The position numbers were made by a program, and so were the translations under genes. A stretch of DNA of 38,433 bases from Saprospiraceae bacterium (GTDB lineage Bacteria; Bacteroidota; Bacteroidia; Chitinophagales; Saprospiraceae), in the NCBI GenBank assembly GCA_020848965.1, contig JADLHE010000155.1:1-38433 (forward strand). Direction: 5' to 3'. This document shows positions 5,187-37,250 of this stretch, in pieces. The notes under the pieces are model-generated. The model did not search any database. It had not been told where the DNA came from and worked only from the letters and a program-made list of their open reading frames with translations. Each line of letters begins with the position of its first letter. The stretch's first letter is position 1.

Positions 5187-5255
5187 AAGGATTGAAGGAT
5201 TGAATGCTGCGAGGGAAATTATTCAATCCTTCCAGCATTCAATCCTTCAATCCTT
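5187..5255 (-). repeat. 23-bp perfect inverted repeat in the dnaE leader
   Basis: AAGGATTGAAGGATTGAATGCTG (5187-5209) and its exact reverse complement at 5233-5255, 23-nt loop. A further copy of the arm word (GAAAGGATTGAAGG, 5169-5182) reaches to within 4 nt of the dnaE ATG (5163-5165). Confidence 0.9.
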
Positions 5256-8742: not shown

Positions 8743-10299
8743 TTACAGCGGCACATTTCCGTGTTTCCGCCTTGGCCTGTCCACCACCTTGTTTTCCAGC
8801 ATGGCAAACGCCTTGATGAGCTTCCGCCTCGTGTCCTTTGGGTCAATCACCTCGTCAATAAAGCCACGTTGCGCAGCACGGTAGGGATTGGCGAAGGTCG
8901 CTTGGTATTCCCGCTCCTTTTCGGCCAGCAGTACAGCGGGGTCGGCGGCAGCGTCAATTTCCTTTTTGAAAATGATTTCCGAAGCGCCCTTTGCGCCCAT
9001 CACGGCGATTTCGGCGGTGGGCCAGGCGAAGTTCATGTCGGCACCGATGTGCTTGGAGTTCATCACGTCGTAGGCCCCGCCATAGGCTTTGCGGGTAATG
9101 ACCGTGACCCGTGGCACGGTGGCCTCGCTGAAGGCGTAGAGCAGCTTCGCCCCGTTGGTGATGATGCCGTTCCACTCTTGGTCGGTGCCGGGCAGGAAGC
9201 CGGGCACATCCTCCAGCACCAGCAGCGGGATGTTGAAGCAGTCGCAGAAACGCACGAAACGAGCACCCTTTCGGCTTGAGTTCACATCCAATACCCCGGC
9301 GAGGCTGATGGGCTGGTTGCCGATGATGCCGATACTGCGACCTGCCAGCCGACCGAAGCCGACGACGATGTTCTCGGCCCATTCCCCGTGTATTTCAAAG
9401 AAGCCGTCCTCGTCCCCTTGCGGCTTGTCCAAAATGCCAGCGATGACCTCCCGCATGTCGTAGGGTTGGTTGGCGTTTTCGGGGATGAGGTCGTTGAGTT
9501 GCGGGCGCAGTTCGTCGCCGATTTCAAAGGCCAGCCGGGGCGTTTTTTCCTCGCAGTTCTGCGGGATGTACGACAGCAGCCGCTTTATTTTTTCGATGCA
9601 CTCCAGTTCGTTCACGGCGGTGAGGTGCGTCACGCCGGACTTAGTGGCGTGGGTGTGCGCCCCGCCAAGTTCCTCCGAGGTCACTTCCTCGTTGGTCACG
9701 GTCTTTACCACGTTGGGGCCGGTGACGAACATATAGCTGGTGTGCTCCACCATGATGGTGAAATCGGTCATGGCCGGGGAGTAAACCGCCCCGCCAGCGC
9801 AAGGCCCCATGATGGCCGAAATCTGCGGGATGACGCCGCTGCTGCGCACGTTCCGATAAAATATATCGGCGTAGCCACCCAAGGAGTTGACGCCTTCTTG
9901 GATGCGGGCGCCACCGGAGTCGTTCAGGCCGATGACGGGTGCGCCGTTCTTCACGGCCAAGTCCATGATTTTGCAAATCTTCTCGGCGTGCGTCTCCGAC
10001 AGCGAGCCGCCAAAGACCGTGAAGTCCTGCGCAAAGACATAAACCAAACGCCCATGCACCGTGCCGTAGCCCGTGACCACGCCGTCGCCGAGCACGATTT
10101 GCTCCTGCATCCCGAAGTCGTCGCAGCGGTGGGTGACGAACATGCCGATTTCTTCAAAAGACCCCGCATCGAGCAGGAAGTAGATGCGCTCACGGGCCGT
10201 CAGTTTGCCCTTTTGATGTTGCGCAGCAATGCGTTTTTCGCCGCCGCCGAGCTGTGCCTCGGCTATTTTTTGGTTGAGTTGTTCGAGTTTGTGGTGCAT
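8743..10299 (-). CDS. acyl-CoA carboxylase carboxyltransferase (beta) subunit, propionyl-/methylmalonyl-CoA carboxylase type
   Basis: [78 protein letters not shown]-terminus [11 protein letters not shown]. Confidence 0.95.
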
Positions 10300-10380
10300 G
10301 ATTTTGATTTACGATTGGGGGATTTACGATTAGGGGATATTGATTGTCTATGCAATCAATTCTGCGGTAAAGATATTGAA

Positions 10381-10613
10381 AGTTGGCAGCTTGTCCGCCT
10401 TTGGCGGGTTCGACAGTTCGCAGGTCTTGTCCCGATTCCTCGGGAGGGCAGTCAGTCAGCAGTCGGTTAGCAAAGCTTGCTAAAATGAAAAGGGCGAAGT
10501 CGTTTTAACAACTTCGCCCTTTTGCAATATTCTAAAACAATTTAGCTGATTAGCAGCACCGGACTGCCAACTGCCAACTGTCGAACCCGCCAAAGGCGGA
10601 CAAGCTGCCAACT
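10381..10613. repeat. 38-bp perfect inverted repeat enclosing further hairpins
   Basis: AGTTGGCAGCTTGTCCGCCTTTGGCGGGTTCGACAGTT (10381-10418) is the exact reverse complement of 10576-10613. Internal stems: TCCCGA/TCGGGA (10430-10445), TTAGCAA/TTGCTAA (10467-10483), AAAAGGGCGAAGT/ACTTCGCCCTTTT (10488-10523). Confidence 0.95.
10488..10523 (-). terminator. intrinsic terminator-like hairpin inside the inverted-repeat element
   Basis: AAAAGGGCGAAGT / ACTTCGCCCTTTT, 13-bp perfect stem with A-rich/U-rich flanks; lies downstream of the 10618-11247 gene. Confidence 0.7.
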
Positions 10614-10617
10614 CAAA

Positions 10618-11247
10618 TCACCCCTCCTCTTTCCTTCGGTTGATTTCGTCCCGAATCTTGGCGGCCTGCTCGTAGTCTTCCTTGCCGAGCACGTCTTCCA
10701 GCAGGCGGGTCAGTTCTTCGACGGAATAGGTGTTGAGCGCCGCCGCTTTTGCTGGGCGCTGTTTGGGGGAGGAGGAAGTGCCGCTGCTGCCGCTGCGGGT
10801 CGTGGACGCTTTCTTGGTGGTACTGCTGCCCTCTGGCTCTTCCAGTACCACGCCGGCGGCATCCAAGATGAATTCGTAGGTGTAAATGGGGCAGTTGAAA
10901 CGCACGGCCATTGCCAAGGCATCGGAGGTGCGGGAGTCAATTTCATAGACCTCGCCATTGCGTTCGCAGACCAAGCGGGCATAAAAAATGCCGTCGAGCA
11001 AGTTGTTGATAATCACCTCTTTAAGGTCAATGCTGAACGTTTCGAAGGCGTTTTTGAAAAGGTCGTGCGTCAGTGGGCGGTTGGGGGCCATGCGCTCCAT
11101 GGCCACGGCGATGGCCTGTGCCTCGAAGCCGCCGATGACGATGGGCAGGCGGCGGGTGCCATGTTGTTCGCCCAGTACCACCGCATAATTATGCGATTGC
11201 GTAACGCTATGGGACAGGGCCACTATATCGAGTTCTATTTTTTTCAT
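10618..11247 (-). CDS. bifunctional nuclease family protein (DUF151) with C-terminal UVR-like motif
   Basis: Start chosen at MKKIELDIVALSHSVTQSHNYAVVLGEQHGTRRLPIVIGGFEAQAIAVAMERM (internal Met of ORF 10618..11556); DSRTSDALAMAVRFNCPIYTYEFIL; tail LTRLLEDVLGKEDYEQAAKIRDEINRR. Confidence 0.93.
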   Translation of the reverse strand: MKKIELDIVALSHSVTQSHNYAVVLGEQHGTRRLPIVIGGFEAQAIAVAMERMAPNRPLTHDLFKNAFETFSIDLKEVIINNLLDGIFYARLVCERNGEVYEIDSRTSDALAMAVRFNCPIYTYEFILDAAGVVLEEPEGSSTTKKASTTRSGSSGTSSSPKQRPAKAAALNTYSVEELTRLLEDVLGKEDYEQAAKIRDEINRRKEEG

Positions 11248-11690
11248 TGAAGCCAAAGGTGTTTTGTGAATGATGAATGATGAATGATAAATGCTACTTG
11301 AATTGCACAACCACTCATTTTCAAAATCACTTTGGAATGGGCTTCCGCCTAATAATTCAAGCAAAAAGCCTTCCTTTTTCCAAAAAGCCTGCGAATCTCT
11401 GCTTTTCTGTTGAAACCAACAATTTTCAACAACCGAAATATGCGGGTTTTCAACTTTCAAATGGGTACTTAGCCACAAGGGCCTTATTTTTTGTAAAATT
11501 AAGCAAATTGAATGAATTGGATAAAAAATCAATCTTGCCCCTTTCCTGCCCTGCAATAAAAAAGGCCTTTTTCAAGGCCAATTTTCCATGCTTTTGTTTC
11601 AATCCAAACCAATCCTCAATTTTATTTTTTGTCACAATAGGATTCAAAAATGAAGTTTTATTGAAATTTTGAAACAAATTGATTTCAAAA

Positions 11691-11837
11691 ATTCATTCCC
11701 TGTGATTCAATATTCATTCCCGATGATTTACAATTGACTCCCGATGATTCACATTTCATTCCCCGTCATCAATATACCATGTTTTGTTTCCAGCGAGTCA
11801 TTCCCGAAGGACAACTATTCACTCCCGAAGGCCAATA
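11691..11837. repeat. degenerate 21-nt tandem array (3x7 substructure)
   Basis: ATTCATTCCCTGTGATTCAAT / ATTCATTCCCGATGATTTACA / ATTGACTCCCGATGATTCACA / TTTCATTCCCCGTCATCAATA (11691-11774), 21-nt interruption, then AGTCATTCCCGAAGGACAACT / ATTCACTCCCGAAGGCCAATA (11796-11837). Confidence 0.85.
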
Positions 11838-18609: not shown

Positions 18610-18679
18610 GATGGTTGAATTGCTGAATTGTCAGGATTGTTTGTGTTAAACAATGAAACAATACAGCAATTCAACCATC
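18610..18679 (-). repeat. intercistronic 16-bp perfect inverted repeat between adhesin and PorP/SprF-like genes
   Basis: GATGGTTGAATTGCTG (18610-18625) / CAGCAATTCAACCATC (18664-18679), with a further inner TTGTTT...AAACAA pairing. Confidence 0.85.
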
Positions 18680-34025: not shown

Positions 34026-34026
34026 A

Positions 34027-34065
34027 TAAACAAAAGGCCCAGCATTCAGCCGGGCCTTTTGTTTA
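34027..34065. terminator. bidirectional terminator between convergent genes
   Basis: TAAACAAAAGGCCC (34027-34040) / GGGCCTTTTGTTTA (34052-34065), 14-bp perfect stem. Confidence 0.88.
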
Positions 34066-34074
34066 TCAGTTTTC

Positions 34075-37133: not shown

Positions 37134-37170
37134 CACCTCCTTACTTTTGCGGGTTGATAAAAGTTTAGGA

Positions 37171-37250
37171 GGTTGATAAGGGTTGATTGCTCAGATGAAG
37201 CTGCCCCAAAATATCAAGCTCACCAACCCATATCAACCCAAATCAACTCA
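37171..37250. repeat. 10-nt word arrays in inverted orientation in the leader of the PaaE-like gene
   Basis: GGTTGATAAG GGTTGATTGC (37171-37190) and CACCAACCCA TATCAACCCA AATCAACTCA (37221-37250); 37171-37188 pairs imperfectly with 37221-37238; ATG is at 37256. Confidence 0.8.

Follow-up and report, generated by a model that had tools for sequence, protein, structure and literature searches.

A 233-bp intergenic inverted-repeat element of a Saprospiraceae genome as a probable copy of a dispersed repeat family of gene ends

The window analyzed here, a stretch of 38,433 nt from a Saprospiraceae bacterium, carries a 233-bp element bounded by long inverted repeats and filled with smaller hairpins, which raises the question of what such a structure represents. 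The first-pass annotation likened it to a MITE-like element or to a large structured RNA or terminator complex, and named a one-off foldback as the alternative. Our data indicate that the element is probably a copy of a genus-specific, dispersed, non-autonomous, and non-coding inverted-repeat family of gene ends; on our best reading this arm family is new, with a MITE/REPIN-like behavior that falls under neither definition.

The element lies in the intergenic space between 10299 and 10618 (Table 1) and is covered by no conserved gene, in keeping with the earlier remark that it holds no open reading frame, although a mechanical ORF (9388-10470, + strand), antisense to the carboxylase gene, does extend into its left part. 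The bounding inverted repeat, described as perfect over 38 bp, is real, and the full arms measure 43 nt, are 98% complementary (the first 38 nt perfectly so), and stand 147 nt apart. The three nested stems and the further sequence inside each arm (CCGCCTTTGGCGG, present in both) were also found as described. A promoter-like TATCTTTA box of the carboxylase gene is located just outside the left arm. The main inner hairpin, AAAAGGGCGAAGTCGTT-TT-AACAACTTCGCCCTTTT, is 94% complementary and has T4 at the stem base, followed by ATTTT; its flanking A-tract and T-tract could allow bidirectional action. A pattern-based terminator scan gave this hairpin no score, because the T run sits within the stem. 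No tRNA or tmRNA was found, and Rfam returned no match within the window.

Table 1. Features at the window site (window positions) and mirrored words that replace the arms in relatives (genome and site).
Feature	Location	Strand	Remark
Upstream gene: bifunctional nuclease domain and UVR motif	10618-11556	-	Conserved part from 11247
Downstream gene: carboxyl transferase (biotin-dependent carboxylase subunit)	8743-10299	-	
Short array, GATTTACGATTGGGG x2	10306-10338	+	Just upstream of carboxylase start
Left arm	10381-10423	+	Outer end AGTTGGCAG faces carboxylase gene, 82 nt off
Palindromic module A, CTTGTCCGCCTTTGGCGG, left arm	10390-10407	+	
Palindromic module B, CTTGTCCCGA-TTCC-TCGGG	10426-10444	+	Left arm only
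Internal stem, TCCCGA-TTCC-TCGGGA	10430-10445		
Small perfect hairpin, TTAGCAAAGCTTGCTAA	10467-10483	.	Between arm and terminator
Resident terminator-like hairpin	10488-10523	.	A-tract/T-tract flank on both sides
Right arm	10571-10613	-	Nuclease-gene TGA stop 4 nt from outer end
Palindromic module A, right arm	10587-10604	-	
Replacing mirrored word GGGGAATTAGTAAATTGGGG	G001, site L200		
Replacing mirrored word TTGAGAATTTGAGGGG	G009, site L191		
Replacing mirrored word GGTATGAAGGCATAAGGTATGAAGGTATGTC	G007, site L191		Perfect 31-bp stem
Replacing mirrored word GATTTACGATTTAGC	G009, site L042		
Replacing mirrored word GATTGTTTGATGGCTGAATTGTTTG	G006, site L042		

The proposed comparison of occupied and empty sites was informative, since four relatives (G004, G009, G012, and G013) keep the same gene pair with a GGGCGAAG..CTTCGCCC hairpin at the window site and no AGTTGGC arms; therefore, the window arms surround an apparently resident terminator. 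In G001 the site holds module-free arms around a different hairpin, and in G010 a short AGTTGGC array follows the stop while a mirrored word precedes the next start; the GATTTACGATTGGGG word builds the mirrored pair of the window site in G009 and G013. We infer the direction of change at this site, gain versus loss, from an unrooted comparison of a few relatives. In agreement with the terminator complex suggested at first, the inner hairpin is very likely the terminator of the site, and the window copy very probably provides the nuclease gene with an extended 3' stem that has this resident terminator at its tip. Nuclease-gene transcripts would enter the arm directly past the stop codon. Termination at the GGGCGAAG/CTTCGCCC hairpin, or trimming as far back as the outer stem, would follow, and the transcripts would be insulated from the carboxylase gene.

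The arm family, with the consensus AGTTGGCAGTTCGACAGTTGGCAGTTGGCAGTCAG, is abundant in the genome that carries the window (G000, a 5.83 Mb draft of 623 contigs, 85.6% complete). When dispersed copies were sought, as the first-pass annotation had advised, the whole element gave 76 matches, the arm pattern 115 (versus 15 for the reversed control), and a stricter 24-mer 91 (versus 0 for the reversed control); the counts for the element and the arm pattern rule out a single-copy foldback. The family is present in 10 of the 13 sampled genomes of the genus, which consists of uncultured Saprospiraceae, and in a few outside it, notably G036, whereas the 24-mer gave three stray matches elsewhere in the order, in two of 198 other genomes. 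G036, from another genus of the family Saprospiraceae, had 61 arm-consensus matches, the second highest count of that search, which may reflect either transfer or parallel expansion. Relatives within the genus such as L091 (JAIPBL01), L090 (WGNL01), and L092 (DIUC01) have intergenic sequences identical to those of G001, G004, and G009. A phage origin was rejected, the exact 24-mer being absent from viral contigs; a carboxylase-query scan of viral contigs gave no matches and was uninformative. A literature search found no paper on the AGTTGGC arm family.

Across 77 loci of the own genome, 126 arms were located, either solo or as inverted pairs that fill the intergenic space. The unit is a polar arm of ~33-60 nt with its outer end, AGTTGGCAG, directed toward the gene; neighboring arms within 400 bp were arranged as '+-' in 38 cases, '++' in four, '--' in two, and '-+' in none. 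Solo arms show the same polarity, the outer end being closer to the gene than the inner one in 16 of 17 (p = 3e-4). Among the stop-facing outer ends, 30 of 37 fell between -2 and +6 nt of the stop codon (median 2), often overlapping stop-codon bases (TAGTTGGCAG, TGAGTTGGCAG), versus 2 of 27 among the start-facing ones (median 47 nt), where gene starts and ends come from a simple codon-usage predictor and certain 'start' labels may be wrong. Furthermore, an asymmetric core, CAGTTGTTTAGTCAGTGCC..TGAACGGCAA.GGACTTAAAGACT, is common to 23 of the 38 pairs, scoring above the maximum of 760 shuffles with a motif that had been read from part of the copies scored. These pairs are therefore copies of one ~134-bp unit, and the many elements with this common core would have spread as units, rather than being one-off foldbacks. 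Given this shared core, we abandoned for most copies the notion that every pair is a native terminator with an independent arm on each side. We kept it for the window copy, which is unusual in that its core is the terminator-like hairpin found at this site in relatives that have no arms there. Modules A and B, both palindromes, occur mostly in arms; they decorate certain arms and are missing from most. The units would have been dispersed by a process akin to transposition or recombination and provided in trans, and would be retained mostly at gene ends, because there they cause little damage or endow the upstream mRNA with a strong 3' stem.

In this context, the MITE-like character first proposed holds for the dispersed, multi-copy inverted-repeat units with a common core; against it, neither a target-site duplication (TSD) nor a matching transposase was found, and solo arms occur. 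As had been noted for the window copy, no TSD is visible; across the 38 pairs the longest flank matches equal the shuffled expectation. No mobilizing enzyme with matching ends was found in a non-exhaustive search, in which the one 900-bp facing-arm case inspected (L191) proved to surround an ordinary gene resident at that place. MITEs, including BrickBuilt of Porphyromonas gingivalis (Bacteroidota), are likewise short, non-coding, dispersed in intergenic regions, and built of inverted ends with internal short repeats (PMC4596501); in contrast, the arm family has no TSD, no parent transposase found, and common solo arms. The distance to the nearest genes is 49-591 nt for BrickBuilt (PMC4596501), whereas the outer ends of the arm family are anchored at stop codons and its core is exchangeable.

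A REP/REPIN system driven by a RAYT (Y1 transposase) would account for polar units between genes, solo or inverted, for the palindromic module of certain arms, and for the Y1_Tnp genes of the genome, and REP, REPIN, and BIME sequences are also clade-specific short units at gene ends (PMC2817692; PMC3733652). We regard it as very unlikely, since the hairpin that a RAYT needs is missing from most arms, the arm shows no terminal GTAG/CGTC tag, and the best Y1_Tnp gene (L086) is surrounded not by arms but by arrays of another palindrome, GGTGCGCTGCACC. A RAYT-driven REP origin was thus rejected, the strong Y1_Tnp gene (one of three matches) being tied to that other palindrome. At L086 (1200-2300, G000:C594), this small Y1 (IS200-like/RAYT-like) transposase gene lies amid about ten GGTGCGCTGCACC copies.

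A comparison of the intergenic slot that took in seven more orthologous sites showed mirrored repeats of other words in place of the AGTTGGC family at the very same stop codons (Table 1), and one slot was empty (G009, site L046). What surprised us most is this slot-level swapping of repeat vocabularies. We tentatively raise the possibility, without calling it probable, that a general process of this genus keeps placing mirrored repeat arrays flush with stop codons. In that case orthologous gene ends would retain the slot and its mirrored layout while unrelated vocabularies are exchanged, and the layout, not any single sequence, would be what is inherited or selected. The observation connects three things that are usually separate: repeats dispersed as inverted pairs, terminators of transcription, and the exact ends of genes. 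Should unrelated mirrored repeats truly refill the slot in each species, this would offer a natural experiment on whether bacterial 3' ends are under selection for structure alone, and would point to an undescribed mobilizing or conversion process that recognizes gene ends.

The presence of several unrelated sequences in the same slots also speaks against a DNA-uptake or recombination signal comparable to the inverted DUS/USS pairs at gene ends of Neisseria and Haemophilus, an explanation that we find extremely improbable. These pairs share with the arms an abundant, genus-specific sequence, often inverted at gene ends and associated with termination (PMC1852404; PMC2397512), but the arm is long and variable instead of a fixed 9-12-mer, has ~100 copies and not many hundreds or more, and the terminator here is a separate hairpin within the arms. 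Similarly, TAACTGA heptamer repeats of Beggiatoaceae, cyanobacteria, and certain Bacteroidetes are lineage-specific intergenic arrays of a 7-nt word, but they are direct and mostly just upstream of start codons (PMC4679880), whereas the arm family forms inverted pairs past stop codons.

A functional structured RNA or extended terminator under selection, with arms conserved since their pairing is needed, is unlikely, despite a very stable stem: the 233 nt, folded in the direction of the flanking genes, reach -146.3 kcal/mol versus -70.4 ± 4.2 for 200 dinucleotide shuffles (z = -18). The precise placement of outer ends past stop codons, and an inverted repeat retained in the slot even where the sequence of relatives is wholly replaced, would agree with such a role. 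However, partner arms are no more alike than others (76% identity versus 78% for unrelated arms), and the overall z of 2.6, which had suggested arm-to-arm covariation or in-place copying, vanishes without the module-bearing copies (permutation z -0.07, n = 30). RNAalifold on 11 full-length copies gave a positive, that is unfavorable, covariation term (+1.88), with double changes in 2 of 38 pairs. The stem thus reflects family ancestry and is not visibly maintained in each copy, and the large structured RNA put forward in the first-pass annotation, for which a covariation check had been recommended, is not supported, because both tests lack arm-to-arm covariation. Moreover, a local hairpin of at least 10 bp is missing from 31 of 38 copies, and Rfam is silent. 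Among the seven copies with such a hairpin, five share a recurring GAGGTGGTATC hairpin, of which the genome has six, five inside arms, and two, L041 and the window copy, a site-specific one.

The likeness of partner arms bears equally on template switching during replication, in which an arm would have been copied inversely across the terminator hairpin as a one-off foldback. The perfect 38 nt of the window arms, the hairpin at the center of this copy, and the perfect long palindromes in other slots of certain relatives (for instance, the 31-bp stem of G007) are in line with it; yet the arms belong to a family that recurs at dozens of unrelated sites, their inner parts differ between sides, and partners are not specially alike across the family, making this origin quite unlikely. 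In a dispersed, unit-wise spread family, as we prefer to read it, template switching may still have homogenized the arms of the window copy once they had inserted.

Strong intergenic inverted repeats (score of at least 16) were present in 29 of 184 regions of the genus versus 2 of 111 in three outside genomes (Fisher p 5e-5), and in none of the shuffles; the sample was not repeat-selected, the window itself excepted (it contributes 4 of the 29, one being the 233-bp element), and the outside sample is small. Regarding single slots, those of L300 (G001:C82) and L294 (G013:C833) are widened by ~1.3 kb and 0.5 kb, next to or between arms, and the extra sequence may contain genes. At site L042, L293 (G009:C42) shows a perfect palindrome, GATTTACGATTTAGCGATTTACGAT-NN-ATCGTAAATCGCTAAATCGTAAATC, that spans the gap between two stop codons, the central NN of which may mark an assembly break. 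The window itself has further intergenic word repeats at 5187-5255, 11691-11763, 18610-18679, and 37170-37250, comprising a AAGGATTG inverted pair, 21-nt CATTCCCGATGATT arrays, a GATGGTTGAATTGCTGAATTGT inverted pair 4 nt from a stop, and a GGTTGATAAGGGTTG inverted pair. Finally, a 15-bp perfect, bidirectional terminator-like hairpin at 34026-34066 begins exactly past a stop codon, between convergent genes.
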